The position numbers and the translations under genes were made by a program. A DNA stretch of 39,421 bases. Source: a virus. The DNA lies in IMG/VR virus record IMGVR_UViG_3300032309_000331, positions 1-39,421 of that record; one strand, 5' to 3'. The notes under the pieces were generated by a model. The model was not told the origin of the DNA. It did no database searches and saw only the letters and a list, made by a program, of their open reading frames with translations. Positions 11,719 through 39,421 of the stretch are shown here, in pieces; positions within the stretch are counted from its first letter, which is position 1, and each line of letters begins with the position of its first letter.

Positions 11719-11905
11719 TAGCTTGCTCTACTTTCTCTGCAAGGTCGAGGAGATGACGCTCTGCGGTGGCTAGACCTTGGATAACACCACAAAGTTTTTG
11801 GTACTCGTCAAAAGTGCGGCACGAACCGCCGGCGAGATCGTCGGCGTAGTTGTTCATGTCGTTGCGTATCTTGTCGCGCAATACGCGTGCGAAGTCTTGG
11901 ATCAT
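11711..11905 (-). CDS. Small helical hypothetical protein
   Basis: A 64-residue, probably all-helical protein (MIQDFARVLRDKIRNDMNNY; later RTFDEYQKLCGVIQGLATAE). It overlaps the portal gene stop by 4 bases and the GroES-like gene by 8, so it is tightly coupled. Small helical proteins of this type often accompany phage portal genes, but no function is known to me. Confidence 0.65.
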   Translation of the reverse strand: MIQDFARVLRDKIRNDMNNYADDLAGGSCRTFDEYQKLCGVIQGLATAERHLLDLAEKVEQANE

Positions 11906-14382
11906 TTAGTAGGCTTAGTCCTCTGTTGAAGTGCTTGCGCACGGGCTTGCGCCGCCACTTGGGCTTTGCTCTTTGCGATATCGACGCCCATGCGGGTGCC
12001 TTCTCGTTCCTGATTGGCGGCCAGAGTCATCATGTCTTTCTGAGTCTGCACCGTGAGCTTGCGGCCTTCCAACTCCATGCGCGCATCCAGCTCCTGCTTG
12101 CGCAGTTCGAGATCGTCTGCCTTGGCAGCCGCGTCGGCCAGCACCTTCTTCTCCTTGATCTCCAAGTCCTTCTGCTGCATCTGGAGCACCGGGTCTTGGG
12201 CTTGCTGCTGGGCTTGTTGCTGCGCAGCCACGGCTTGGTTCTGCTGGAGCAACTGCTGAGCGGCTTGGGCCATCATCGACGACAGCGCCAGCTCGATCTG
12301 CGGCGGCAGTTTCTCGTCCTCGGGCGGCAGGGGCATGCCGAGCTGCTGCTCAATTTTCTGGCGGTAGCCATACCCAACGTGCTCGGCAATGTGCGCCATC
12401 ATGGCCGCTTGGATCATCGGAGCCCGGGGGTTCTGTCCCACAAGCTGCATGATGATCGGGTCCTGCATGGCCGACATGTGCACCTTGATGTGGGACTCGT
12501 GGTCTTGGTACTGGAACGCTTTCATCGGCTCGCCTTTGAGGCAGGCCATGTTCTCAGCCACCGGGTCCTTGGGCTTCTGGTCCTCCGGCAGGGGCACAAG
12601 CTTGTCGGCGTTCTTGATACCTAACACCTCCAGCATCCCACGGTGGAGTTGCGGCAGGTTGTAGATGTCCGGCGCGGTTTGCGAGAGCTGAATGACCGCT
12701 TGGTACTGCACCAGTCGCTGGGATAGCGTGGCAGCGTTGGGGTCCGAAACGGGGATGACCTCCACCATGTCGTAGTCCGACTGCTTGATCTGACGCGGTG
12801 CGTCATCCTTGGTGTCGGGGTCGTAGGCGTACGCGTCGTCCGTGTAGTCGCGGATCAGGTTCTTGATCAGTTGCAGCTCTTGCTTGAGCGCGTAGTGCAC
12901 CCGAGCCTGCACAGCCGTGAGGACTTTGAGCTGGCGCTCGATCAGTGCCAGCGTGGTACCAACGGGAGCCTGTGCGGACATGTCGGACACTTTCATGTCC
13001 GCAGTCGCTGCGAAGCGCCGGCCCTCCTCCACAACCGTGTTCAGCAGGTTGAACAGCGTAGCCGATGGCTCCTTGTAGGGCAGGGGCAGGATGTTGTCCC
13101 GCAGAGCGCCCGAGCCAATATCGACATCCCTAAATTCACCGGGCGCAATCGGGGTGTCATCTCCCTTGATCCGCAGACCACGAGACTTCAGACCGCCCGG
13201 CAAGTTAGAGAGGGTACCCGCGTCGATGAGCTGACGCATCAAGCTGGTGGCCGAGTTGGCGAAGCCACCGATCAGGTGGAAGAGACCGAAGCCATACGCC
13301 CCGAAGCCCGGGATGTACTGGTAGTGCACGAAGTGCTGGCGCTTGAGATGCAGCTCGTCGGTCTCTTTCCAGTTACGGCGGATTGACAAAACAGTGTTCG
13401 TGCCACGGATGAACGTCACCACATAGGGCAGGTTGACGCCTGCGGGCTCCCCGTCCTCGTCCCGGATGCACAGCGGGTCCTCAGGGATGCACAGATCGAC
13501 GTGGGACTCCAGCAGGTGGAACCTGTCGTCGTTCAGGTCGGTAAAGCCCGTCTCTTTATCCTTGGCCTTGTTGATCTCGTCAATGGCCTTGTCCGGCTGA
13601 CCGATGTCCTCGTCGCGGTAGAACCCCGCCATCTGCAGCTTCTTGATCTCGTCCTCAGTCTTGCGCATCTGGTGCGTGACGCGGTAGCAAGTCTGGATGT
13701 CCGAGGTGCCGTAGGGCAGGAGGATGTCTTCGGCGGGGATGAAGATCGAAACTTGGCGTCCCAAATTGGGATCGAAGTAGACCTTCTTAAAGGCCGAGCC
13801 CGTGGCCGGCAGGCTCCACAGCATGCGCTCATGCTCAGGCCGGAACTCGTGCATCTTCTCGGTGAGCTGGTAGTTCATGTCATCCTGCACGCGGATCGAC
13901 ACTTCTTGCTTCTCGGGCGTTTGCTTGCCCACCAGCTTGGTGCGCACCGGGCCCTGTGCCGGGAAGGTTTCCGTGATCGTCTCGCTCTGGAAGCGCACAA
14001 CTGCTTCTGTGATCATCGGGTGGAACACGCCCGACGCGCCATCCCACGGTTCTGTGCGTTCTTCGATCTGCAGTCCGAGTAGCTTGAGCCCCGTGACATA
14101 CGCCTTCTCCCAGTCCTTGCGGCTGTTGCGGTCGTTGTCGATGTCGCTGGCCAACTCACTGGCCATCGTGGAGATGAACCCCTCTGGCAGGTACTCAGCA
14201 AGGTTAGCGTTGAAGTCGTCGATGGACGGCTCGCCCGGCTCAATACTGATCTCAAGATCGCCTGCGCGGATGTTTACTTCTTCGGGATCGATGATCTCAA
14301 TCTCGATGGGCTCCGCGCCTTCGGCCTCGGACTCTAACCCTTGCGAGGACTGAAAAAGCGCTTTATCGATGTTCGTGGCCAT
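11902..14382 (-). CDS. Portal protein (P22-like)
   Basis: An 826-residue protein, long for a portal but usual for the P22-like group. An acidic N-terminus is followed by the clip/wing-type core: DNDRNSRKDWEKAYVTGLKL, then TEPWDGASGVFHPMITEAVV, and a central region with YLPEGF and LSIRRNWKETDELH. The C-terminal third is a Gln/Ala-rich helical barrel and coiled coil (LLQQNQAVAAQQQAQQQAQD, then KDLEIKEKKVLADAAAKADD). In P22 this barrel extends into the head interior. The protein forms the dodecameric ring through which DNA enters and leaves. It is placed between the large terminase and the scaffold and capsid genes. Confidence 0.85.
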   Translation of the reverse strand: MATNIDKALFQSSQGLESEAEGAEPIEIEIIDPEEVNIRAGDLEISIEPGEPSIDDFNANLAEYLPEGFISTMASELASDIDNDRNSRKDWEKAYVTGLKLLGLQIEERTEPWDGASGVFHPMITEAVVRFQSETITETFPAQGPVRTKLVGKQTPEKQEVSIRVQDDMNYQLTEKMHEFRPEHERMLWSLPATGSAFKKVYFDPNLGRQVSIFIPAEDILLPYGTSDIQTCYRVTHQMRKTEDEIKKLQMAGFYRDEDIGQPDKAIDEINKAKDKETGFTDLNDDRFHLLESHVDLCIPEDPLCIRDEDGEPAGVNLPYVVTFIRGTNTVLSIRRNWKETDELHLKRQHFVHYQYIPGFGAYGFGLFHLIGGFANSATSLMRQLIDAGTLSNLPGGLKSRGLRIKGDDTPIAPGEFRDVDIGSGALRDNILPLPYKEPSATLFNLLNTVVEEGRRFAATADMKVSDMSAQAPVGTTLALIERQLKVLTAVQARVHYALKQELQLIKNLIRDYTDDAYAYDPDTKDDAPRQIKQSDYDMVEVIPVSDPNAATLSQRLVQYQAVIQLSQTAPDIYNLPQLHRGMLEVLGIKNADKLVPLPEDQKPKDPVAENMACLKGEPMKAFQYQDHESHIKVHMSAMQDPIIMQLVGQNPRAPMIQAAMMAHIAEHVGYGYRQKIEQQLGMPLPPEDEKLPPQIELALSSMMAQAAQQLLQQNQAVAAQQQAQQQAQDPVLQMQQKDLEIKEKKVLADAAAKADDLELRKQELDARMELEGRKLTVQTQKDMMTLAANQEREGTRMGVDIAKSKAQVAAQARAQALQQRTKPTK

Positions 14383-14658: not shown

Positions 14659-16182
14659 TCAATAGTAAGCCGCCTTGCGGCGCTGGAAGAACCGATCCTC
14701 TTTCTCGTCCGAGTCGAGAGAGATGAACCCGCCTTGGCGATAGCGCAGGAGGGCTTGCGTGGTTGTATCCACAAAGTCATCGTGCTCGCCTACCGGGAAA
14801 GATGCTACTTCCTCAATCACTTCACGCGCCCAGCGCGTGTCCGGTGCCCAAACTTTGCCAGAGCTGAACAAGTCCGCCACGGCGTTCAGACGCACCATTT
14901 TGTCATTTCCCCGGCTCGGTGAAAACTCCTGCACGGGGATGCCCATGTTGCGCAGCTCTTGGATGAGCGGCGCTCCGGCCGCCTTCTTTTCCACAATGAA
15001 CGCGTCGGGGTCCCACTCTTTGTAGTGTTTGAGCGCGATCTCTTTGAGTTCCGGGAACGCCATCCGGTCTTTGAAGGCGTCGAGCAGGATGACCTGCGGG
15101 CTGTTGCCCTCTTCCTCGTTGTAGAACACCCCCCACGTTGTGCACGCGGAGTAGTCAGAGTTGTTCTTGGTCTCAAAAGCCGTATCCCATGACTGGATCA
15201 CGTAGTCACAAGTTGGCGGGTCCTCACCTTCCCAGATGCGCCAGTGTTTGCGGCTCACGATGGCTGAGTTCTCGCTCGTGGGCTGCTGCATGTACTGGGC
15301 GTTCCAGTATCGGGGGTCTAGGCTGGCCTTTGTAGCTTTGAGCGACTCAAGGGGCCACTGCTCCGGCCACAGACTCTTCTCTTCTGGCGTGTCCTCGTTC
15401 AGGATGGCCGGCAGCTCCACGATCTCCCATGGAATGGAGTTCGGATTTTTGATCTGGTAGTCGATCAACCGCCCGGTCAGGTCCAAAAGAGACCAGCGCG
15501 TCATGATGATAATTATCGCGCCCCCCGGCATCAGACGTTGCAGCGGCCCCGTCTGAAACCACGACCACGCGGTGTCGAAGGCCAGCCGGGAATTGGTTTT
15601 TATGTCCTGCTCAGAGTGAGGATCATCAATAACAAATAGGTCAGCGCCACGACCAGCAAGAGCGCCACCTACGCCTGCGGCGTAGTATTGACCCCCCACG
15701 CTGGTACTCCACTTGCCCGCCGCCTTCTGGTCATCTGCAACCACTGTGGCTGGAAAGACCTCTTTATATTCGTCACCATCGAGCAAGTTCCTGATGCGCC
15801 GGCCAAAGTCCTCTGACAGGCCCGCAGTGTGCGTGCCCATGATGATCTTCTTCTGGGGGTATTTGCCTAAAAAATAGGCAGGAAAGAGGTAGCTGGAGAA
15901 TTCTGACTTGCCCATACGCGGCGCGATGTTGATGATCACCCGCTTTTTGCGGCCCTCGATCACGTCCGTGAAGATTTTGGCCAGCTTCCTGTGGTGGGGC
16001 CCGATCTTAAAGCCCGGATAGACCGACGTGGCAAACCCCAGCATGTTGTCCTGCGCGGCGGTCAGCCGGGTGCGCTTCTCGCGCTCCTCTAAGTCAGCCA
16101 GCAACTCCGCTTTTTCCTGCGCGCTCATGTGCGGCAGGGCTTTTTGCAGGGCTTCCAGCTCTTGCTTAGATAGGCTTGTCAC
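14659..16182 (-). CDS. terL: Terminase large subunit (TerL)
   Basis: A 507-residue packaging motor ATPase and nuclease. It starts at GTG (16182), overlapping the small terminase candidate by 4 bases. A Walker A-like motif lies at residues 87-94 (APRMGKSE), Walker B at 181-188 (DLFVIDDP) and a coupling-type MTRWS near 227-231. The RNase H-like nuclease domain begins with YVIQSWDTAFE; Asp333 is a likely catalytic acid. A later EKKAAGAPLIQELR and the C-terminal HDDFVDTTTQALL fit the same domain. It cleaves concatemeric phage DNA and drives it into the prohead through the portal. Confidence 0.95.
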   Translation of the reverse strand: MTSLSKQELEALQKALPHMSAQEKAELLADLEEREKRTRLTAAQDNMLGFATSVYPGFKIGPHHRKLAKIFTDVIEGRKKRVIINIAPRMGKSEFSSYLFPAYFLGKYPQKKIIMGTHTAGLSEDFGRRIRNLLDGDEYKEVFPATVVADDQKAAGKWSTSVGGQYYAAGVGGALAGRGADLFVIDDPHSEQDIKTNSRLAFDTAWSWFQTGPLQRLMPGGAIIIIMTRWSLLDLTGRLIDYQIKNPNSIPWEIVELPAILNEDTPEEKSLWPEQWPLESLKATKASLDPRYWNAQYMQQPTSENSAIVSRKHWRIWEGEDPPTCDYVIQSWDTAFETKNNSDYSACTTWGVFYNEEEGNSPQVILLDAFKDRMAFPELKEIALKHYKEWDPDAFIVEKKAAGAPLIQELRNMGIPVQEFSPSRGNDKMVRLNAVADLFSSGKVWAPDTRWAREVIEEVASFPVGEHDDFVDTTTQALLRYRQGGFISLDSDEKEDRFFQRRKAAYY

Positions 16183-17652: not shown

Positions 17653-17668
17653 GGGACAGTTTGTCCCC
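17653..17668. promoter_or_regulatory. Inverted repeat GGGACA-N3-TGTCCCC, copy 2
   Basis: GGGACA, spacer GTT, TGTCCCC, starting 4 bases after the stop of the first early gene. Same dyad and spacer length as at 17201 and 19030. Confidence 0.6.
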
Positions 17669-18264: not shown

Positions 18265-18277
18265 TTGAGGAACGGGG

Positions 18278-18297
18278 CGAGAGAGAATTCTCTCTCG
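18278..18297. repeat. Perfect 20-base palindrome containing GAGAGAGA
   Basis: CGAGAGAGAATTCTCTCTCG reads the same on both strands. A near copy (arms GAGAGAGA / TCTCTCTC) lies at 19780-19797, also in a gap before a gene. It may be an operator or a cruciform site. Confidence 0.7.
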
Positions 18298-18337
18298 TCT
18301 CACCTATGAAACTATGCAAAAAACGCATAAAAATAGA

Positions 18338-18357
18338 TGTCCAAAGACTATGCAACT
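18338..18357. repeat. Outer inverted repeat, left arm
   Basis: TGTCCAAAGACTATGCAACT here pairs with the reverse complement at 18605-18624, matching at 17 of 20 positions; the core TGCATAGTCT is identical. The two arms frame the AT-rich gap. Confidence 0.7.
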
Positions 18358-18369
18358 TTTTCAATTCCT

Positions 18370-18418
18370 TGGACGCTCGCAACCCGCATGAATCCTAGCG
18401 TCGTCCGGAATGCGTCCA
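18370..18418 (+). repeat. Direct repeat unit, left copy
   Basis: Begins TGGACGC and ends GCGTCCA, 49 bases. The right copy at 18544-18592 has the same ends at the same spacing and a similar middle (GCAACCC and following). Its final 7 bases start a 17-base inverted repeat arm (18412-18428). Confidence 0.65.
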
Positions 18419-18543
18419 TCTATCTATCTATTTCTAAATACTTTATGTATGTAGTAGTGTTTGTATGTGGGCTGAGCGAAAGACTCTCTCAAGTTTTGAC
18501 ATTTAAGCTAAGGCGTGTTCTCTTTTTAAAAACGATAGATAGT

Positions 18544-18592
18544 TGGACGCAAACGGGGCAACCCCGCGTGGATGCTGGCTCTCCAGCGTCCA
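18544..18592 (+). repeat. Direct repeat unit, right copy
   Basis: Begins TGGACGC and ends GCGTCCA, matching the left copy at 18370-18418. The internal GCAACCCCGCGTGGATGCTG resembles the left unit with several substitutions. Its start is the inner part of the inverted repeat arm 18534-18550. Confidence 0.65.
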
Positions 18593-18604
18593 GTCTTTCT
18601 GATA

Positions 18605-18624
18605 AACTGCATAGTCTCTGGACA
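18605..18624. repeat. Outer inverted repeat, right arm
   Basis: AACTGCATAGTCTCTGGACA, complementary at 17 of 20 positions to 18338-18357. It ends 22 bases before the start of the next gene. Confidence 0.7.
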
Positions 18625-18646
18625 CTTTTTACACGAGACACACACT

Positions 18647-19468
18647 ATGAATCAAAGAGTGAGATGGCAGGACATTCACAACCGCATGACCCGGCGTGGC
18701 ATCCCCGCGCAACTCGTGTCAGCCGCAGTCGAAGCGCACAAGCAGAGGGTCAGTGACGCCAAGCGCCAGCGCCTGTTCGAGCGGCAACACCGCCTGTTGT
18801 GGGCCAAGCTGATGCGTCCTCTCATGTATGAGCTGGACTCGGCACGCACTGGGCTGACCTATGCGAGGCACAACACGCCGGGCAACACGCTCAAGATCGA
18901 GGCGTTGGAGGGGTACACCCTTGTGTTGGAGGAGCTAGCCATGCGCCTGACCGAACACCGGGATGACAAGGTGCACACGCCCAGCCAACTGGCTAAGGCG
19001 TACAACAACGAGTTCAAGAAGCGGGCAAAGGGACATTTTGTCCCCAATCATGGCGAGCATTGGACGGACTGGGTGCCGAGGCACATCAAGCTACGGGTAT
19101 CCGATCTGTTTGCCTTCGCTCCCCGTGCGCCGCGTGCCAAGCCGAGGCTACCTTTCCAGCGCACAATGCCGCCTTCGATGAACAGTCGGGCCGAGTCGGC
19201 GCTACGCAAACGCATCCTCAACGAGATGGGGCCGCTGAAGTTGTTGCTGGAGACCTATCCTGACCCCGAGCATCCCGACCGGGACAAGTGGCAGGCCAAG
19301 CTGGGCCAGATGACCAAGGCCCTGACCATCCTCGACGCTATGAAACCAAGAGACTTCGTGCCCACCACATGGCAGTCGCTGGTAGGTGCACAGCTCGATG
19401 TGCCCGAGTCTGAGGAGGAGCTGGAGCAGAGCTTCCGAGATGCCCATGCGGGTAGAGATGAGGAATGA
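18647..19468 (+). CDS. Early helical hypothetical protein
   Basis: A 273-residue, basic, mostly helical protein (MNQRVRWQDIHNRMTRRGIP; then KRQRLFERQHRLLWAKLMRP). The ATG at 18647 is chosen because the longer frame from 18572 runs back into the repeat region. Its ribosome site is weak (no clear GGAG), unlike its neighbours. The N-terminal half looks like a helical DNA-contacting region; the C-terminus is acidic (PESEEELEQSFRDAHAGRDE). It adjoins the candidate origin, so an origin-binding role is an open idea but unsupported. The dyad at 19030 lies inside it. Confidence 0.65.
   Translation: MNQRVRWQDIHNRMTRRGIPAQLVSAAVEAHKQRVSDAKRQRLFERQHRLLWAKLMRPLMYELDSARTGLTYARHNTPGNTLKIEALEGYTLVLEELAMRLTEHRDDKVHTPSQLAKAYNNEFKKRAKGHFVPNHGEHWTDWVPRHIKLRVSDLFAFAPRAPRAKPRLPFQRTMPPSMNSRAESALRKRILNEMGPLKLLLETYPDPEHPDRDKWQAKLGQMTKALTILDAMKPRDFVPTTWQSLVGAQLDVPESEEELEQSFRDAHAGRDEE
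19030..19045. promoter_or_regulatory. Inverted repeat GGGACA-N3-TGTCCCC, copy 3 (inside a gene)
   Basis: GGGACA, spacer TTT, TGTCCCC, within the gene at 18647-19468, where it codes Lys-Gly-His-Phe-Val-Pro. Same dyad and 3-base spacer as the two intergenic copies. Confidence 0.45.
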
Positions 19469-22925: not shown

Positions 22926-23489
22926 ATGACTTTCAATCTAGGTGAAGTGCTGCGTGCCAAGCTGATGTTGTCCCAGTTCAACGAGGACATGAAACAAAAA
23001 GAGGAAGTGCAACACGAGGTACCCAAGTTGGAAACAAAGCGCAAGCCTTTTCAGATCGGCAACAACCTCAACCGCACGCTGTTCGAGCAGGCACAGCTCT
23101 ACCCAACCACACGCAAGAACTTGACCGAGCGGATGGTTGCGATGGGGTTCAAGCTTGCATCTGTTAGCTCAATCCTTGGGCAGATGCTCAGGCAAGGTCT
23201 CTTGCAGGCTGACGACGAGGGCGTGTTGCATCTGACTGTGGGGCAGTACACCCCGATCAAGAGCGCGAAGATGCTGCGCAAAATGGAGGCAGCCAAGGCC
23301 AAGCCCGGGCGCAAGCAGATAAAGGTGAACGTCCGCAACCGCACAGTGGAGGAGGTGCGGGAGGAACGACCAATGTCTTCTCCTGTGGTGCAAGAGACCC
23401 GGGTCAAATCGATGCTGCGCAGCCTGTCAATACTGGAGGCGCTGGAGCTGTACGCAGAGCTGAAGAAAGTTTTTGGAGACAACAAATGA
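22926..23489 (+). CDS. Possible winged-helix DNA-binding protein
   Basis: A 187-residue basic protein. Residues about 55-105 (LYPTTRKNLTERMVAMGFKL, then LGQMLRQGLLQADDEGVLHL) look like a winged-helix fold: three helices then a beta wing ending VLHLT. A Lys/Arg-rich linker (KAKPGRKQIKVNVRNR) and a helical C-terminus (LRSLSILEALELYAELKKVF) follow. Leader GGAGAAGCAAATG. If it binds DNA it could be an early regulator. Fold inferred by eye only. Confidence 0.5.
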   Translation: MTFNLGEVLRAKLMLSQFNEDMKQKEEVQHEVPKLETKRKPFQIGNNLNRTLFEQAQLYPTTRKNLTERMVAMGFKLASVSSILGQMLRQGLLQADDEGVLHLTVGQYTPIKSAKMLRKMEAAKAKPGRKQIKVNVRNRTVEEVREERPMSSPVVQETRVKSMLRSLSILEALELYAELKKVFGDNK

Positions 23490-25585: not shown

Positions 25586-25836
25586 ACACAGCACTGGAGA
25601 AGATGTCGGAGGACCAGCGCGGCCATCTGCGCATCGTCATCGCTGAGCTGATCCAATGCTATCTGGACGACGACCTGCACGGCATGGTGTTGGTGGGTAA
25701 GCCACCCTACGAGCCGTTCAAAATCATGGCGGTGAACACCAACGAGATGGACGCTGTTGGCCTGCTACGTGTGGCGCAAGAGTACATCAACTACAGCGTC
25801 ATGGAGGATGCACCCCCGAAGGAGCAGTTCAATTGA
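25573..25836 (+). CDS. Small hypothetical protein upstream of DNA polymerase
   Basis: An 87-residue acidic protein (MFDLNTALEKMSEDQRGHLR, then IVIAELIQCYLDDDLHGMVL, GKPPYEPFKIMAVNTNEMDA). The helical N-terminus and later FKIMAVNTNEMDAVGLLRVA suggest a compact alpha/beta domain. It overlaps VRR-NUC at the start and DNA polymerase at the end, so it belongs to the replication operon. No family known. Confidence 0.6.
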   Translation: MFDLNTALEKMSEDQRGHLRIVIAELIQCYLDDDLHGMVLVGKPPYEPFKIMAVNTNEMDAVGLLRVAQEYINYSVMEDAPPKEQFN

Positions 25837-27800
25837 GCGCGCCCTTCGACCGCATCATCACCATCGACTTCGAGACACGCTGGGACAAGCGCGACTACAC
25901 CCTTTCCAAAATGACAACCGAGGAGTACATACGGGATGAACGATTCACTGCATTCGGAGCTTGCCTCCACGAGTTTAATACTGATGCGCCTACTGTTTGG
26001 GTGCGCGGTGATGAGCTTGTTGATGTTCTTGGTGGCGTGGATTGGAGCCGAACAGCAGTGCTCGCACACAACGCTCAGTTCGATGTGTCTATTCTGGAGT
26101 GGCGCTATGGTGTGCGGCCTTGTTTTATTTTCGATAGCCTGTCTATGGCTCGTGCCCTGCGCGGTGTGGAGGTGGGCAACAGCCTCGCCAAACTTGCAGC
26201 AGACTTCAAACTCCCAGCCAAAGGCAAAGCGGTCAACTCCACCGACGGTCTGGAGACGATAACTCCGGAGATCGAGAAAGAGCTGGCCGACTACTGCAAG
26301 CACGACGTGTACCTGTGTGAAGAGGTGTTCAAGCGACTGAGCAAGGGCTACCCGGCCAAGGAGCTACGCCTGATCGACATGACGCTCAAGATGTACACCC
26401 GCCCGGTGTTGCAGCTCGACCAGAACATGCTGATGGATGCTATTGCAGAGGAGAAAGAAAAGCGTGAAGGACTACTACACAGGCTCGGCTTGGATGAAGC
26501 TGTACTGGCGTCGAACCCGCAGTTTGCACGAGCGCTCAAGGCGCTTGGGGTCGAGCCGCCTACGAAGGTCAGCAAGACGACTAACAAGCGCACGCTCGCA
26601 CTTGCTAAGAACGATGCGCTTTTCCAAGCGCTCCTTAATGGCGGCAACGAGGAAGTTGCAGCTCTTTGCGAGGCTCGGCTTAAGGTCAAGTCCACGACGG
26701 AGCGCACGCGTGCGCAGCGTTTTCTAGAAATCTCCAAGCGAGGGGCGCTGCCTGTGCCCCTGTCCTACTACGGTGCATCCACGGGGCGATGGACGGCGAG
26801 CAAGGGCAGCGCCATCAACATGCAGAACCTCAAGCGTGGGAGCTTCCTGCGCAAGGCAATCATGGCCCCTATCAACAATCAGTTGGCGGTGGGTGACCTG
26901 TCCCAGATCGAGCCGCGTGTGCTGGCGTGGCTGGCTGACTACGAGGAGCTGCTGGACATCTTCCGCTCAGGCGGTGACCCGTACGCCCAGTTCGGTGCGC
27001 AGATGTTTGGCATCCCGGGCATGACCAAGGACAGCCATCCGGTCGAGCGACAGTCTGCCAAGTCCGCCCTGCTGGGCGCTGGCTACGGGCTGGGGTGGGC
27101 ATCGTTCGCACAGCAGCTTCTGGTGGGGTTCCTCGGGGCACCACCACTGCGCTACACCAAGGCAGACGCCAAGAAGCTGGGCGTGACGGGCGACGCGATC
27201 AAGGCGTTCGTTGCCAACGAGGACTACGTCAAGCGGATGGAGGAGATACCCCACATCTGCACGACGCAGGAGCTGCTTGTGCACTGCATCACAGCCAAGG
27301 CCATCATCGACAAATACCGCGCTGCAGCATGGCTTGTGAAGACCTTCTGGGGTGCGATGGAGGAGATGCTGGTGCGCTGCCTTGCCGGGGGCGAGGAGAT
27401 GGTGTATAAATGTCTCACCTTCAGAAAGGAGGAGATCGTATTGCCCAACGGCATGCGAATCCTGTATCCCAATCTGCGTCAAGAGAAGGATGACAAGGGT
27501 GCGAAGCGGTGGGTGTATGGGCCGGAGGCCACGCCCCTGTATGGAGGGAAGATCACGAACAACGTGGTGCAAGGCACTGCGCGTATCGTGATGACAGACG
27601 GGATGCTGCGGGTGAACAAAAGGTACCCCGTGGTGGGAACAGTGCATGACGAGCTGATTGCTGTTGTGCCTGACGAGGAGGTTGCTGACGCGAAGACTTG
27701 GGTCCTCGCGCAGATGACCATGGAGCCGAGTTACATGCCGGGGATACCGCTGGCCGCTGACGGTGGCGTGCACCGTAGATATGGATTGGCAAAGAATTGA
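25833..27800 (+). CDS. Family A DNA polymerase with 3'-5' exonuclease
   Basis: A 655-residue DNA polymerase that copies the phage genome. It starts with TTG at 25833, supported by AAGGAG 8 bases upstream and by overlap with the previous stop. The DEDDy proofreading domain shows D12 and E14 (ITIDFET), D84 (HNAQFD) and Y154-D158 (YCKHD). The polymerase domain has motif A at D355 (GDLSQIEPRV), the O-helix R406-G419 (RQSAKSALLGAGYG) and motif C D606-E607 (VGTVHDELIAVV). There is no 5'-3' exonuclease domain, as is usual in phages. In the O-helix the position matching E. coli Phe762 is Leu414. Confidence 0.95.
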   Translation: MSAPFDRIITIDFETRWDKRDYTLSKMTTEEYIRDERFTAFGACLHEFNTDAPTVWVRGDELVDVLGGVDWSRTAVLAHNAQFDVSILEWRYGVRPCFIFDSLSMARALRGVEVGNSLAKLAADFKLPAKGKAVNSTDGLETITPEIEKELADYCKHDVYLCEEVFKRLSKGYPAKELRLIDMTLKMYTRPVLQLDQNMLMDAIAEEKEKREGLLHRLGLDEAVLASNPQFARALKALGVEPPTKVSKTTNKRTLALAKNDALFQALLNGGNEEVAALCEARLKVKSTTERTRAQRFLEISKRGALPVPLSYYGASTGRWTASKGSAINMQNLKRGSFLRKAIMAPINNQLAVGDLSQIEPRVLAWLADYEELLDIFRSGGDPYAQFGAQMFGIPGMTKDSHPVERQSAKSALLGAGYGLGWASFAQQLLVGFLGAPPLRYTKADAKKLGVTGDAIKAFVANEDYVKRMEEIPHICTTQELLVHCITAKAIIDKYRAAAWLVKTFWGAMEEMLVRCLAGGEEMVYKCLTFRKEEIVLPNGMRILYPNLRQEKDDKGAKRWVYGPEATPLYGGKITNNVVQGTARIVMTDGMLRVNKRYPVVGTVHDELIAVVPDEEVADAKTWVLAQMTMEPSYMPGIPLAADGGVHRRYGLAKN

Positions 27801-32881: not shown

Positions 32882-35815
32882 ATGACACCGCAAGAGTTCT
32901 TCGCGGTGGTTCTGCCGCCACCCGGTCACGGGTTGTATTGCGCGGTTGAACTGACCACAAAACGAAAAGAGCATAAGCACAAGGAGACGCTGGCTGAACT
33001 GCAAACACACATAGACGCTTGGGTCGAGGCCAAGTGCAACACCTACTTCGCGCTGGCGACGTTCGAGGAAGCGGGCAGCCGCGAGGCTACCAACGCACGG
33101 CACATCAAGTCGCTGTTCGTGGACATCGACTGCAACGAGGACGGCCCCAAGACCTACGGCACCAAGGAAGCCGGCATGGAAGCGTTCAACGCTTTCATGC
33201 AAAAGACGGGGCTGCACGAGCTGGGCAACCCCTACATCATCGACTCGGGCGGCGGGTACCACATCTACTGGCCGCTGACTGACACGCTGGACATCACCAC
33301 ATGGAAGCCGGTGGCCGAGAACTTCAAGCGCCTGTGCAAGCAGGAGGGGCTGAAGATCGACATGACCGTGACGGCAGATGCTGCCCGGGTTCTGCGCTGG
33401 CCAGATACGCTCAACTTCAAGGCTGCATACCCTGAGCCGCGCCCCGTGCGGATACTGCAAGAGGGTGTGCTGTTCGACTTCGAGATCATCAGCGCTGCCA
33501 TCCGTGGGCAGCTCCAAGCTGGCGGCACCCCCGCAGTCACAGCGCCCAACAACGTGGTGTCCCTGCCCGGCACCCGCCCCTCTCTTGCCCCGTCCGCGAC
33601 CAGTGTCAAGCTCTTTGAGAACAGCGTCACGCGGTTCAAAAACATCGTCAAGGCCACGCAAGCTGGCTCTGGCTGCGGCCAACTTGAGCACTTCATCGAG
33701 AACGCAGAAGACGACGGCATGGAGCCGCTGTGGCGTGGCTGGCTGAGCATCGCGCAGAAGTGCGAGGACAACGAGAAGGCCACCGTGTGGCTGAGCAAGC
33801 TGCACCCGTACGACACCGAGCGCATGAACCAGAAGCTGCGCGAGATCAAGGGCCCCTACCCCTGCGTCAAGCTCGACTCTGAGAACCCCGGCATCTGCCA
33901 CAAGTGCTCGCACTGGGGCAAGATCACCAACCCTCTGGCCTTGGGGCGCGAGGCGAACATCAACACGGAAGAGAAAGAGATCGAAGTCGAGGCGCTGGTG
34001 GACAGCCCCGTAGCTGAGCCATCACCGCTTAAGCGCCCGGTACCGCCCAAAGGCTATGCCTACGGGGACAAGGGTGGCGTGTTCCAAGAGCGTGAGGTCG
34101 AGATGGCCGACGGCTCCAAGTCCAAGAAGCATGTCATGCTGCTGCCCTACGACCTGTTCGTGGTGGACATCCTCAACGCCCACGGCGACCATACTGTGCA
34201 CATGATGGCGCTGCGGCCCGAGGGCCCGGTGGATGTGATGGTGCCGTCCAAGGCGATGGTGTCCAAGGATGAGACGACCAAGTCGCTGGCCCAGCAGAAC
34301 ATCATGGCGAGCTTCGGCCAGAACAATGACAAGAACTTGTTCGACTACGTCCGCGCCTGCGTCGAGCAGGCTGGCCTTGAGAAGCGTGCGCTGGCGGTCC
34401 CTGATCACTACGGCTGGCAGCAAGACAAGAACTACGTGTTCGCTGGCCGCATCTTTAGTAAGGGCAAGCCTCCCGTCAAGGTGCCGATGCCCGGGCTGGA
34501 GAACATCGTGTCCTTCACGGAACCCAAGGGGACGCTCGATGGCTGGCGCGCCATCGTCAGCATGCTGATCGAGAAGAAGATGTACAAGCACCTGTCCATC
34601 ATGCTGCTGGGCGCTGGCGCTCCGCTGATGCGTTACACAGGGCTGGCAGGCATGACGGTTCACTGTGCCTCTACTGAGTCCGGCACGGGCAAGTCGCTGG
34701 CACTGGAGCTGGCGGCCTCGGTTTGGGGTCATCCGGTGCGTTACCGAACGGGAAAGTCCACTTCTCCTGTTGCGATGCAGCAGCGGCTGGGTATGCTGCA
34801 CTGCCACCCCCTCATCTCCGACGAGATCACGAACAATAACCGCAAGGACTTTGAGTGGTTCCCCGGCTTCTTGCTGGACATGTCGGAGGGCAAAGGCAAG
34901 GAGCGCATGGAGTCTGGCGCTAACAAGGAGCGTCTGAACCTCTCGACGTGGTTCACCATCGCGATGCTGTCTTCCAACACGCACGGCGTGGACTGGCTGA
35001 CTGGCGTGCGCAAGCATTCATCCGAGGGCGAGCTGCGCCGGTTGCTGGAGTACATCATCGAGGACCAGCTCTCGTGGACCCCGGCTGAGGTGGAGGTCAT
35101 CAAGAGCCTGCACCACCACTACGGCGTGGTCGGCTTCAAGATGGCTGAGTACATGGTGGACAACGAGCACACGCTGTCGGAGCTGACCAATGACACCGTG
35201 CAGCGGATGTATCAGGTCTGCAACGCCACAAACGACGAGCGCTTCTGGATGGCTGGTATCGGCTGTGCCGTGGCTGCGGGCGCTTTGTGGAGCCAGAAGT
35301 ATCTGGGCATCGTCGATCTGCCGCTCAAGCAGATCATCGGGGCGTACAAGGATGTGGTCAACTTCATGCGCAAGTCCATGCGCACCAACGTCCGGACAGC
35401 GGAGAACGTGCTCAACTCTTTCATCAGCGAGAACTTTGGCAAGCTGCTGGTGATCCGTCGCCATTCCCAGAGCAACGCGCTGATGGCAGAGTTTGGTATG
35501 GGCCGGGAGGCCGACGAGAGTATCACCCGGTCATCCATATCTGGGCGTGTGGAGCACAACATCACGCCGGGCTACTGCGACTTCTTTATCGAGGAGCAGA
35601 TGATGAAGGCCCACTGCGCCGCGCACAGTTTCGGCTATGCCGCGTTCTGCAAGAAGCTAGCAGAGACAAATAACATCGTGGTCGAGTTCCTCAAGAAGGA
35701 TATGACGGCCAAGACCAAGGCCCCACCCATGCGCGTGCAGGCGATCAAGGTGCGCCGTCGGTTGGAGGATATTGGTGAACTACTCCAGAATCCGCCTGCC
35801 TTGGAAGCGGCTTGA
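32882..35815 (+). CDS. Primase-helicase fusion (AEP primase plus DUF927-type ATPase)
   Basis: A 977-residue protein joining primase and helicase. The N-terminal archaeo-eukaryotic primase (PrimPol) part shows SLFVDIDCNEDG (D81, D83), DSGGGYHIYWPL (H127) and TADAARVLRWPDTLNFK (about 164-180). A Cys/His cluster follows (GICHKCSHWGK, near residues 340-350). The C-terminal half is a P-loop ATPase of the DUF927/replicative-helicase type: ESGTGKSLALELAA (near 599), then HCHPLISDEITNN. It would synthesise primers and unwind DNA at phage forks. It is preceded by HTH and SSB-like genes. Motif assignments are by eye. Confidence 0.85.
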   Translation: MTPQEFFAVVLPPPGHGLYCAVELTTKRKEHKHKETLAELQTHIDAWVEAKCNTYFALATFEEAGSREATNARHIKSLFVDIDCNEDGPKTYGTKEAGMEAFNAFMQKTGLHELGNPYIIDSGGGYHIYWPLTDTLDITTWKPVAENFKRLCKQEGLKIDMTVTADAARVLRWPDTLNFKAAYPEPRPVRILQEGVLFDFEIISAAIRGQLQAGGTPAVTAPNNVVSLPGTRPSLAPSATSVKLFENSVTRFKNIVKATQAGSGCGQLEHFIENAEDDGMEPLWRGWLSIAQKCEDNEKATVWLSKLHPYDTERMNQKLREIKGPYPCVKLDSENPGICHKCSHWGKITNPLALGREANINTEEKEIEVEALVDSPVAEPSPLKRPVPPKGYAYGDKGGVFQEREVEMADGSKSKKHVMLLPYDLFVVDILNAHGDHTVHMMALRPEGPVDVMVPSKAMVSKDETTKSLAQQNIMASFGQNNDKNLFDYVRACVEQAGLEKRALAVPDHYGWQQDKNYVFAGRIFSKGKPPVKVPMPGLENIVSFTEPKGTLDGWRAIVSMLIEKKMYKHLSIMLLGAGAPLMRYTGLAGMTVHCASTESGTGKSLALELAASVWGHPVRYRTGKSTSPVAMQQRLGMLHCHPLISDEITNNNRKDFEWFPGFLLDMSEGKGKERMESGANKERLNLSTWFTIAMLSSNTHGVDWLTGVRKHSSEGELRRLLEYIIEDQLSWTPAEVEVIKSLHHHYGVVGFKMAEYMVDNEHTLSELTNDTVQRMYQVCNATNDERFWMAGIGCAVAAGALWSQKYLGIVDLPLKQIIGAYKDVVNFMRKSMRTNVRTAENVLNSFISENFGKLLVIRRHSQSNALMAEFGMGREADESITRSSISGRVEHNITPGYCDFFIEEQMMKAHCAAHSFGYAAFCKKLAETNNIVVEFLKKDMTAKTKAPPMRVQAIKVRRRLEDIGELLQNPPALEAA

Positions 35816-35999
35816 GAAGGGGCAGGGGTTCTTTGTCCCCTGCCTCGACTTTGAAAAGATGCGCGAGTATGGGCTGACCAAGGCGGTCAGCGAACGCATA
35901 CTTGACGCTCAAGCCATACCCGGCATCAAGGACGGGGCTGCTGGCGTGTGGTTCTTCAGGAAGCCTGTCGTTCCTCGACCTTCCGCACCGCCGCATTGA
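35775..35999 (+). CDS. Small basic hypothetical protein, overlapping the convergent gene
   Basis: A 74-residue basic protein, GTG start at 35775 with GGAGGA 6 bases upstream: MNYSRIRLPWKRLEKGQGFF, then VPCLDFEKMREYGLTKAVSE, ending RKPVVPRPSAPPH. It starts inside the primase-helicase gene and its end overlaps, in the opposite direction, the end of the large minus-strand gene (44 bases). No terminator hairpin separates the two. Family unknown. Confidence 0.6.
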   Translation: MNYSRIRLPWKRLEKGQGFFVPCLDFEKMREYGLTKAVSERILDAQAIPGIKDGAAGVWFFRKPVVPRPSAPPH

Positions 36000-38900
36000 A
36001 CTTGTTGGCCAAGTCCTGCCGCACCTTATCGAGCTGATCAAGGCGAGCGCGCTTCTCTTCTGAGTTCAAGTCCTTGCGGTTGCGCACGACATCCTCCTGC
36101 GTGCGCAGGCGGCCCAGCAGCATCTCAAAGTTGCGTGCCATGGGTGCCAGCATGATCTCGGTGCGGTGGTTGGCCAAGTACTCCTTGGCGTCTTGCGGCG
36201 TACCGTTTTTCTGGATGTCCTTCAAAGACGCAGCGCGTTGCGTGGCTTCCTTGGCAAACGCGTACATGGTGTCCGCATCTGCCCCACCGTACTGCTTCTG
36301 GAACACGGTGCCCAGTATGGGGGTCTCTGACAGTCGGCGCGCAGGCGCTTCACCTTTGGTCTCCTCACGCATGAAGCCAGAGGCCACGGACATGAGCGCC
36401 AGCGGTGCGGTACCGAAGTAGCCACGGGCGATGTGCTCGACTTGAACCGGAGACAGCGGCAACACTTTTGCCAGCATCTTGGCAGCCTCCGTAGTGGAGG
36501 CGTTGAAGCGCTCCTCCGGGCTGCGGTTCTGCATGGCGACCGACTCGATGTTCTGACCAGAGAAGAAATTCTTGTTGGTGTACACCTCCAGCAGCGGCTT
36601 GATAGCCTGCGGCATGAACTTCGAGCTGTAGCCCGGGATAGATGAGAGGAACATCTCACGCAGCGCTTGGAGCTGCTGCGCGGTATTGGTCTCCGCCTTC
36701 ATAGCATCGGCAAGCGCCACGGCAGCGCTGAAGAACCAGCCAGCTTCGTAGGGCAGCGGAACCTTCACAGCCTCGCTGACGCCCGGCAGATGCACAAAGA
36801 AGTTCGTGTACTTGTCCCGGGGCTTGGCGTTCTTGAACGTCTCGTCGTCCTCCATGGCCATGGCATACACCAGACCGACGCCGAACAACATGACCGCGTT
36901 GTTCCAGAACTTGCGCTGGATACGCTGGCGATCCTCGAAAGGCATCTTCCCGCGCATCGCTTTGATCAAGACGTTCAGGCCCTGAATCTGCGCGTTCATG
37001 AACGGGATCAAGCGGTTGGCGTACTGCACCGAGGGCGACAGGCCGCGCTTGTAGAAGTTCATGGACTCCATGGTCATCAGGTCGGCTTCTACTTCCGACA
37101 GACCATTCTTGCGTGCGTTCTCGTACACCAAGCCTCGTGTGGCAGCATCGGCACGAATCGCCGCACGGTCCAACAGACCCATCAAACGGTCAATAGCAGA
37201 ACCATCTTTGCCGCTGGCAAGCTGCGTAGCAAACGCCGACATGTCATCGGGGTCGCCGGTGAAGATGCCGCTTTGGATCAGACCCTTCTCAATCAGGTTC
37301 TTAGTCGCCGCGCTACGCCCGGCGCTGCTGCGCAGGAATTCAACACCCGCCATGACCACGGCACGGAACGGCCCGTAGTTCAAACCGCCCGTAAACGACG
37401 CGGCCATCGGGTCACGGATAAGCTGACGGAAGATGTACGGAGGCATCCGGGTCACGCCCTTGCGCAGCCAGTCGCCAGCAATACCGCCAATCTTCAAGAA
37501 CGCAGGCAGCGTCAGGTGTGCGCCTTCAAGACTCTTGACCACCATCTCGGCAGGGATGCCTTCCATCGTGGTGTTCTTGGTGCTGATGCGCAGCCAACGC
37601 TGACCGTCGTCCTTCGGGTCTTTCGGATCAGGCTCTTGCTTAAACCGAATGACATCTGTCCCTGCCGGCCCGTGCCCACGCTTGATCGGCATAGCGTTCT
37701 TGCCGTCTGCGCCCTTACCTTCACCAAACTCCTGCATGGCGTAGGCAATTTCTTTGGTGGCGTTGTTGGTCAGCGCCGCTCGGGTGATCAGCATGGTGTT
37801 GCGGATCAGCGATTCGTTGAGCGGCAGAATCTTGCTCTCACCGCCTTTGAGTTCCGCCAGATACGGCTGAGTGCGAATGTCGCCAATCGTCAGCGTCTTC
37901 TCACCACCGAACACCAGCTCAGCCGTGCCATCCGGACGCACACGGTAGTAAGGAACGTAGTCACCATCCTTGAGCCATTGCTTTGCTTCGGCCTTGGAGA
38001 TCACGCCAGCGTCGGCAAGAAGCTTGATCTGTCCTTCGTTGTAGGCGTTGTACTGGCGGCGCACTTCCTCCAGAGAACTCTTGAGTTCAGGGTCTGCGTT
38101 AACCGCTGCCATTGCCGCTGCTAGGTCAGACTCTTTCAGGCCCAGCTCGCCGATGTCCAGCTTGCTCAGCCCTTTGTTGGCCGCCCGCTGAGCGATCATG
38201 TAGGTGGACGCCAACGCAAACTTAGCTTGCGTGTTCTTGCCGGGCACGGCCTTGACGGCGTTAAAAATATCTTGTGCAGGGTTCTGGTTGCTAGACCTCA
38301 ACCCGCGCAACCCTTTATCGTCGGTGTAGAACTCCAGCGGGCCATTGGAGAGCGCCGTGTACACCAGCGGCATGTACTGATCGGCTTTGCGCACGTTGTA
38401 CATGGCCTGCGTGAACAGGTCGTCGTTACCCATCTCCTTGGCACCGCGCTTGAGAGCTTCTTGCAAACCCGCAGGCATATCCACGGCGTTCATCTCGGCC
38501 TTCAGTGCGAGATTGGATTTGTTCCTTTCAATGAAGCCCTCGGGCTGCGCAATGATTCGGTCGGCCAAATCAGTCAGCGCGTTCTCAGACTCGTACTTGG
38601 GTTTAGCAACGCGGTACAGCGGGGCGGTGGTGCCAGTCTCGGCGACACGATTGACGCCACCTTGGATCACATGACGGCGAGCGTTGGCAACGAGCTGCTG
38701 GACCTGCTTGTCCGACACGGACTGCCCGAACACACGGCGAATGAAACTACGCAGCGCGTCGTAGACCGCACGCAAAACACCCGGGCCTTTGGCGTTGGGG
38801 TCGCGCTCAGCCATGTCGGCCAACACTTCTTCCGTTGCGGTGTTCCGGTTCAGCGAAGGCGTCTCGCGCATCTTGGCGTCGGCCTTGGCTTTAACGTCGC

Positions 38901-39421
38901 GGTTGCCGTTGTAGATGCGGTTCATCTCGGCGGCATAGCCGGAGCCCAACAGGCTGCGGAGACCAAAGTGTCCGGTCACCTCGTGTGCGATGGTCGTGAA
39001 GACATCGGCAGGGTCGAACAGGTTGGAGGCAACGAGGTACACCTTGTTGCTGTTGGGATCGAATAGGCCGGGGATGCTGCCCTCGACGTTGTCAGACTTG
39101 GCCTGCGCACGGATGTAATCGGGCAGTTGGCTTTCGTTCTCGACAACCTCGATCTCCGGCGCGTTGGCAAAGTTGCCAACAACACGATCAACTAGCCCAC
39201 GGATGGTCTGCAGCTTGAGCGCCGTGCCGGTGCCCTTGGAGGTTCGATACAGCGACTTCAACGAATCGACGTTGAGCTTTTCTTCTATAGGTTCGGCTTC
39301 AGCCGTAGCTTCCTCAGCCGTAGCTTCCTCAGCCGTAGCTTCCTCAGCCGTAGCTTCCTCAGCCGTAGCTTCCTCAGCCGTAGCTTCCTCAGCCGTAGCT
39401 TCCTCAGCCGTAGCTTCCTCA
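35956..39421 (-). CDS. Large polyvalent virion protein (HExxH, LPD38-like), 5' end beyond the right edge
   Basis: At least 1,154 codons, still open at the right edge. In-frame TTG at 39261 is not necessarily the start, because the frame continues upstream as KLNVDSLK preceded by Glu/Ala/Thr repeats. Counting from that codon, residues 90-99 (TIAHEVTGHF; H93, E94, H98) form an HExxH metallopeptidase-type site. A long Ala/Lys-rich helical body follows with FLRSSAGRSAATKNLIEKGL, resembling the LPD38 domain of large polyvalent phage proteins, which are packed in the head and injected with DNA. The tail is coiled (EEKRARLDQLDKVRQDLANK). It may be an ejected enzyme or internal virion protein. Confidence 0.75.
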   Translation of the reverse strand, partial: EEATAEEATAEEATAEEATAEEATAEEATAEEATAEEATAEAEPIEEKLNVDSLKSLYRTSKGTGTALKLQTIRGLVDRVVGNFANAPEIEVVENESQLPDYIRAQAKSDNVEGSIPGLFDPNSNKVYLVASNLFDPADVFTTIAHEVTGHFGLRSLLGSGYAAEMNRIYNGNRDVKAKADAKMRETPSLNRNTATEEVLADMAERDPNAKGPGVLRAVYDALRSFIRRVFGQSVSDKQVQQLVANARRHVIQGGVNRVAETGTTAPLYRVAKPKYESENALTDLADRIIAQPEGFIERNKSNLALKAEMNAVDMPAGLQEALKRGAKEMGNDDLFTQAMYNVRKADQYMPLVYTALSNGPLEFYTDDKGLRGLRSSNQNPAQDIFNAVKAVPGKNTQAKFALASTYMIAQRAANKGLSKLDIGELGLKESDLAAAMAAVNADPELKSSLEEVRRQYNAYNEGQIKLLADAGVISKAEAKQWLKDGDYVPYYRVRPDGTAELVFGGEKTLTIGDIRTQPYLAELKGGESKILPLNESLIRNTMLITRAALTNNATKEIAYAMQEFGEGKGADGKNAMPIKRGHGPAGTDVIRFKQEPDPKDPKDDGQRWLRISTKNTTMEGIPAEMVVKSLEGAHLTLPAFLKIGGIAGDWLRKGVTRMPPYIFRQLIRDPMAASFTGGLNYGPFRAVVMAGVEFLRSSAGRSAATKNLIEKGLIQSGIFTGDPDDMSAFATQLASGKDGSAIDRLMGLLDRAAIRADAATRGLVYENARKNGLSEVEADLMTMESMNFYKRGLSPSVQYANRLIPFMNAQIQGLNVLIKAMRGKMPFEDRQRIQRKFWNNAVMLFGVGLVYAMAMEDDETFKNAKPRDKYTNFFVHLPGVSEAVKVPLPYEAGWFFSAAVALADAMKAETNTAQQLQALREMFLSSIPGYSSKFMPQAIKPLLEVYTNKNFFSGQNIESVAMQNRSPEERFNASTTEAAKMLAKVLPLSPVQVEHIARGYFGTAPLALMSVASGFMREETKGEAPARRLSETPILGTVFQKQYGGADADTMYAFAKEATQRAASLKDIQKNGTPQDAKEYLANHRTEIMLAPMARNFEMLLGRLRTQEDVVRNRKDLNSEEKRARLDQLDKVRQDLANKFNAAVRKVEERQAS
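39301..39421 (-). repeat. 15-base tandem repeat, 8 copies, coding EEATA
   Basis: AGCCGTAGCTTCCTC is repeated exactly eight times without mismatch from 39301 to 39420, and the ninth begins at the edge. On the minus strand, in the frame of the large polyvalent gene, each unit codes Glu-Glu-Ala-Thr-Ala. Exact identity suggests recent slippage or expansion and possible length variation. Confidence 0.95.

Follow-up and report, generated by a model that had tools for sequence, protein, structure and literature searches.

In phage P4, replication is initiated by a single primase-helicase protein, alpha. Helicases have also been described in other mobile elements: Cch, which carries a DUF927 domain, is related to the Rep helicase of SaPIbov1; SaPI Rep recognizes its origin via its C-terminal domain; and Cch2 binds the direct repeats of a putative origin (PMC7581432). 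Such helicases find their own origins through short repeats, and the SaPI and SCCmec origins adjoin the helicase gene (PMC7581432).

The locus considered here comes from a bacterial virus that has not been cultivated: 380 non-coding bases separate two genes, and in them matched sites are mirrored about an AT-rich center. The DNA analyzed (“the window”), 39,421 bases, makes up an entire IMG/VR virus record; as longer relatives measure 54-63 kb, the full genome is probably ~60 kb and the window only part of it. With SaPI Rep and with SCCmec Cch and Cch2, the locus shares a helicase of the same group (DUF927), non-coding short repeats, and a primase that is fused or associated. Unlike in those systems, the phage repeats are not arrays but nested inverted pairs, 14 kb separate the region from the helicase gene, the encoded helicase has a primase-polymerase-like N-terminus, and the genome encodes its own DNA polymerase.

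Other origin types offer partial parallels. As in iteron plasmid origins (e.g., pIGWZ12, of the Rep_3 type), repeats adjoin an AT-rich region, and pIGWZ12 carries, between mobC and rep, 18/20 bases of the 20-base motif described below. In contrast to iteron plasmids, the region has inverted pairs and short direct repeats but neither tandem direct iterons (~17-22 bases) nor a DnaA box, Rep_3 was not found in the window genes scanned, and the adjacent protein encoded from position 18647 matches no known initiator family. Two oppositely placed origin sites and a primase also recall RSF1010 oriV (ssiA/ssiB, RepB' primase). Identity with ssiA/ssiB was rejected, the motif being absent from RSF1010 (best match five substitutions off and outside oriV), as was an RSF1010-type primase, since homology to RepB' was not detected. 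The likeness to P4 alpha, an initiator that combines primase and helicase in a single protein (PMC7145576), is one of general description.

Here, we propose that this region is the main replication origin of the phage, bidirectional and opened by its DUF927 primase-helicase, with an overlapping promoter for the 18647 gene; we assign this reading a probability of about 0.7. Origin function, site binding, and core melting are all things that we infer from sequence comparison.

Results

Matched inverted sites are nested around an AT-rich core

The features of the region, and of the genes to which we refer below, are as follows (window coordinates).

18338..18354, + strand: left arm of the outer inverted site, TGTCCAAAGACTATGCA; lineage-specific, matching its own mate within the genome
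18370..18418, + strand: left 49-base unit (TGGACGC...GCGTCCA), enclosing the 20-base motif
18381..18400, + strand: 20-base motif AACCCGCATGAATCCTAGCG, matching AACCCGCATGAATACTAGCG at 19/20; widespread outside this phage
18412..18428, + strand: left arm of the inner inverted site, GCGTCCATCTATCTATC
18419..18543, unstranded: AT-rich core, 33% GC (76% AT in 18418-18467); proposed DNA unwinding element
18534..18550, + strand: right arm of the inner inverted site, GATAGATAGTTGGACGC
18544..18592, + strand: right 49-base unit (TGGACGC...GCGTCCA), with a second, degenerate motif copy
18600..18608, + strand: promoter-like extended -10, TGATAAACT, whose last base is also the first of the right outer site
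18608..18624, + strand: right arm of the outer inverted site, TGCATAGTCTCTGGACA, mate of 18338-18354
18647..19468, + strand: adjacent gene, 273-aa all-helical protein; ~32% identical to relatives' copies, or replaced
25833..27800: family A DNA polymerase, assigned by homology
32882..35815, + strand: 977-aa DUF927 primase-helicase, related to SCCmec Cch and SaPI Rep; proposed origin-opening initiator

From the outside inwards, the outer inverted pair is followed by the 49-base units (the left one with the motif), the inner inverted pair, and the AT-rich core. By direct reading and counting, the outer arms are complementary at 16/17 positions, and the inner arms likewise at 16/17. The best distal inverted 17-mer of the region thus scores 16/17, a level never reached in 300 dinucleotide shuffles (never >14) and reached by only one other scanned 382-base window of the genome, which overlaps the region. 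TGGAC/GTCCA occurs six times, the genome maximum, against a mean of 0.8 per 382 bases. The nested inverted repeats described in an earlier sequence-only reading are therefore real and far above chance, with the right outer arm beginning at 18608 rather than 18605. That reading's two 49-base units were recovered with their TGGACGC...GCGTCCA ends and 42-base start-to-start spacing (left unit start, 18370), as were the ATCT microrepeats of the AT-rich core at 18419-18543. Its three copies of ACTATGCA became two direct copies (18311 and 18347) and one inverted copy (18608). Its statement that no gene fills the gap also held: an in-frame ATG is present at 18572, yet the relatives' proteins align from 18647.

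The 20-base palindrome, which had been counted among the origin hallmarks, is present and perfect at 18278-18297. It is probably a separate hairpin outside the conserved unit, because relatives have a different hairpin in its place (GGGGGAACAGTTCCCCC in L003, GGGGGAGAAACCTCCCCC in G723). Short perfect hairpins lie between rightward genes at 17653-17667 as well as at 18278-18297; their sequences differ, also among relatives.

Folding bears on a further explanation, in which the region would be a structured RNA or an uncharacterized non-coding RNA gene. The hairpin of the right unit (18569-18592) is stable relative to shuffles (z = -4.0), as such an RNA would be. The left unit, however, folds no better than shuffles, Rfam has no match in the region, conservation falls on sites that recur in both orientations, and complementarity between the motif's flanks is generally weak. 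We consider an RNA very improbable.

The region lies where early and late gene blocks diverge

A leftward block extends from ~16.95 kb and comprises the terminase large subunit (14659-16182), the portal (11902-14382), and structural genes. Rightward genes start at 17.2 kb and encode a DUF932 protein, a GP88-like protein, DNA polymerase A, a PD-(D/E)XK nuclease, a SNF2-type helicase, and the primase-helicase. At the region, the late genes head left and the early genes right; the two blocks converge again just beyond the primase-helicase, so that genes would run with forks leaving the region. Polymerase, SNF2-type helicase, nuclease, and DUF927 primase-helicase are all phage-encoded, a gene content that supports the origin reading.

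The most AT-rich 60-mer of the genome lies inside the region in G001, G709, G710, and G723, and is tied for first in the window. The skew check proposed by the sequence-only reading agreed in part: the cumulative AT-skew minimum falls 0.5-1.5 kb from the region (five genomes; confounded by gene strand), whereas that of the cumulative GC skew, likewise confounded by gene orientation, lies at a distance of 1-7 kb. A DnaA box (TTWTNCACA) is absent from the region, the sole window match being at 14987. Elsewhere in the window, the 187-aa protein at 22926-23489 resembles actinobacterial integration host factor very weakly (E = 0.037), and 35956-39261 encodes a large, LPD38-containing polyvalent protein that the record end probably truncates; relatives' open frames at that locus reach 2,800-3,700 aa.

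The terminase genes, 1.3 kb to the left, raise the possibility that the region is their packaging site (cos or pac). In relatives, they neighbor the region and are highly conserved (mostly 81-88%), and contig L004 starts at the region's left border. Apart from L004, however, no contig end was seen in the region among the loci with relatives of the 18647 protein, and G001 (60,463 bases, with ends overlapping by ~225 bases), G709, G710, and G723, all long contigs, carry the region internally. Moreover, the outer arms vary between lineages while the terminase hardly does. To our knowledge, a large mirrored AT-rich structure is atypical of cos. A packaging role is, in our assessment, highly unlikely. 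In L005-L025, contig right ends seem clustered 0.6-1.5 kb beyond the point where the 18647 homologue begins, which could mark a variable region or a genome end.

Layout is constant among relatives, while paired sites vary together

Relatives of the 18647 protein were found in 43 viral loci, to which the motif scan added further loci of the same phage group, and gene order around the gap is conserved among them. The comparison with related phages suggested in the sequence-only reading bore out the repeats: in ~20 distinct relatives, the outer pair, the AACCCGCATGAAYACTRGCG motif, the inner pair, the AT-rich core, and the mirror copies occur at the same position, even beside an unrelated adjacent gene. 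In the relatives read, a TATATA or TCTATC tract adjoins the inner site, usually followed by a GGGGG-like run in mid-core and then by the mirrored sites. A second motif copy was detected in the right arm of 17/20 genomes (p < 0.05), inverted in 13 and, as in the window, L003, L040, and L053, direct in four; the inverted orientation is thus that of most relatives.

To quantify the pairing of arms, we used each genome's best inverted pair, in some genomes not the outermost site, in 19 distinct genomes with the universal motif masked. Arms of the same genome agree at 14.9/17 positions and arms of different genomes at 12.0/17 (sd 1.0), a difference reached in 0/10,000 permutations. Only 7/19 genomes beat every other partner, because related genomes share sequence. 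Two classes of site appear to be layered here: a variable class, whose halves change together as expected of a lineage-specific partner, and a constant class, comprising the motif and TCTATC.

Inverted repeats bounding an insert of 100-250 bases would also be found in an invertible or recombination segment, and the core is indeed flanked by such repeats. However, the AT-rich tract lies beside the left arm in the same orientation in the relatives read (printed reverse-strand copies aside), and an adjacent recombinase gene is absent. This explanation is scarcely credible.

The region is retained when the downstream gene is replaced

The multi-operator control region offered by the sequence-only reading as its alternative fits part of the evidence. 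Here, a phage regulator bound to the nested inverted sites would loop the DNA and repress the early rightward promoter, and the region would be no origin. The extended -10-like TGATAAACT, which overlaps the right outer site, lies 39-47 bases ahead of the 18647 start codon; a comparable element occurs 40-50 bases 5' of the start codon in 6/15 groups. Dimeric repressors suit paired inverted sites, and paired inverted sites with a promoter would also fit a looping repressor.

Several observations weigh on the other side. The region is retained beside unrelated neighbor genes in the L053, L054, and L062 types. In G723, where the helicase is 85% identical, an unrelated gene replaces 18647 and the region is present with a different, perfect 17/17 outer pair. 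An operator role for the 18647 gene alone would therefore not account for the region. Its left-hand neighbor gene is also rightward, so a divergent promoter pair does not explain the symmetry; the genome's most AT-rich point lies between the arms; no recognizable repressor is encoded among the adjoining genes; and a scan of the region found no sigma-70 -35/-10 pair. We regard control without an origin as unlikely. The overlap between the promoter-like element and the right outer site suggests that the 18647 gene could be under the control of the region as well.

The 20-base motif recurs in unrelated replicons

AACCCGCATGAAYACTRGCG was found in 38 viral stretches and 45 bacterial-genome stretches, against one or two exact matches expected by chance in 257 billion bases (hand estimate). 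A sister pattern, with GTA for ATG, occurs in two viral stretches, and the 17-base core read backwards gave 0 matches in 699 genome draws. A close form of the motif occurs twice in the jumbo phage RaK2, where perfect repeats of 36 bases enclose it and inverted GTGTCCCTAATTC arrays accompany it. Phage phiEcoM-GJ1 has it in a non-coding repeat region of 1.2 kb, and mobilizable plasmids carry it by the several hundred, most of them similar in size to pIGWZ12. Chaseviridae are among the carriers. In two bacterial loci, inverted arrays of short repeats surround the motif, with a DUF927/Toprim protein encoded nearby in L113 and a DUF5906/VapE protein in L181; in G206, a DUF927 gene is 6.9 kb away. 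Altogether, three neighbors of the DUF927/DUF5906 type were seen within 7 kb, against ~0.1 expected (rough hand estimate, 42 genomes searched).

Many copies adjoin unrelated genes: PAPS reductase, HU (assigned from the start of the protein), HD-GYP, IS605-type OrfB, integrases, and priA. Others lie at tRNA ends or at insertion-sequence-like contig ends, and in plasmid pMPC6-4K the motif is beside a recombinase, not beside rep. In an Acidovorax genome (L112, ~4018), it lies ~150 bases ahead of priA (primosomal protein N'). In L100, L124, L127, and L129, an apparent tRNA 3' end (...CGCCA) is followed directly by GTRTTCATGCGGGTT with the motif. L154, L156, L159, L161, L165, L175, and L178 contain a repeated element, GTCGGCCCTGCAAAAC...AACCCGCATGAACACTGG...GCGGGGTGAATGCCGATGG, some copies of which are near Burkholderiales contig ends; it is possibly an uncharacterized insertion sequence end.

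Three simpler identities were rejected. A fixed chromosomal site does not agree with presence in only 29/301 members of one family and 4/398 of a phylum draw, both counts including the center genome. For a universal single-stranded DNA or RNA hairpin, the advantage of matched over swapped flanks was limited to 25/30 bases (2/5000) and was not significant at 8-20 bases, so dyads are a feature of a subset only. As coding sequence, the motif falls inside an umuD-like frame in L101 and L128, which we judged to be chance, and is elsewhere mostly intergenic. Rfam matched only tRNAs in motif-bearing loci. In the texts searched, the motif's 18-mers were unmatched, and 13-mers matched a single, unrelated paper.

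The motif is real and widespread, and some copies lie in origin-like settings. Tentatively, AACCCGCATGAAYACTRGCG might be a new type of origin element that does not depend on the replicon: a conserved host factor (e.g., a primosome or strand-opening protein) would recognize it in phages, plasmids, and integrated elements that are unrelated and differ in their initiators and short repeats. We consider this conjecture doubtful.

The phage encodes a Cch- and SaPI Rep-like primase-helicase

The primase-helicase matches DUF927 at 9e-22 and, by profile, PDB 5dgk (Cch) at 1e-5 and 8tch (SaPI Rep) at 7e-5; its match to NCBIfam SCCmet_Cch1 (6.7e-7) is far below that model's own cut-off. Its N-terminus has primase-polymerase-like motifs (DID at 81-83, SGGGYHIYW at 122-130), for which profile support is weak (PriS, 0.0085; LigD_Prim-Pol, 0.09 in a relative). 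Its predicted structure (pLDDT 42) is too poor for a structure search. The 18647 protein had no match in PHROG, Pfam, NCBIfam, or PDB searches; its predicted structure, confidently all-helical, matches three unnamed phage proteins and no solved relative.

Discussion

The layout argues for the anatomy of a bidirectional origin, because layered variable and constant sites flank the AT-richest stretch at the point where the gene blocks diverge. In the sequence of events that we propose, a phage protein would bind both of the observed outer inverted sites, while the motif copies on either side of the AT-rich core would be occupied by a protein of the phage or of its host; the core would then melt. 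Two primase-helicase hexamers would load, one per arm, depart in opposite directions, and prime for the family A polymerase; for these steps, the proteins are assigned by homology and their predicted action is modeled on Cch, Cch2, and SaPI Rep. An occupied right outer site may shut the promoter that it overlaps at 18600-18608. Of the “iteron-type replication origin” put forward by the sequence-only reading, the origin is favored by the comparative evidence; the type is not supported, given the inverted pairs and the absence of a DnaA box.

Weighing against an origin are the distance to the helicase gene (14 kb in the window, 17 kb in G001), the arrangement of the repeats as inverted pairs rather than arrays, and the bacterial motif copies, most of which are not beside replication genes.

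The presence of the motif in RaK2, Chaseviridae, pIGWZ12, and DUF927/DUF5906 integrated elements could point to an unrecognized host-factor site at the origins of mobile elements. The region provides a concrete candidate origin for a group of uncultivated phages whose early and late genes form divergent blocks and whose primase-helicase is Cch/SaPI-Rep-like; its paired sites would shift their specificity between lineages while the layout stays constant.
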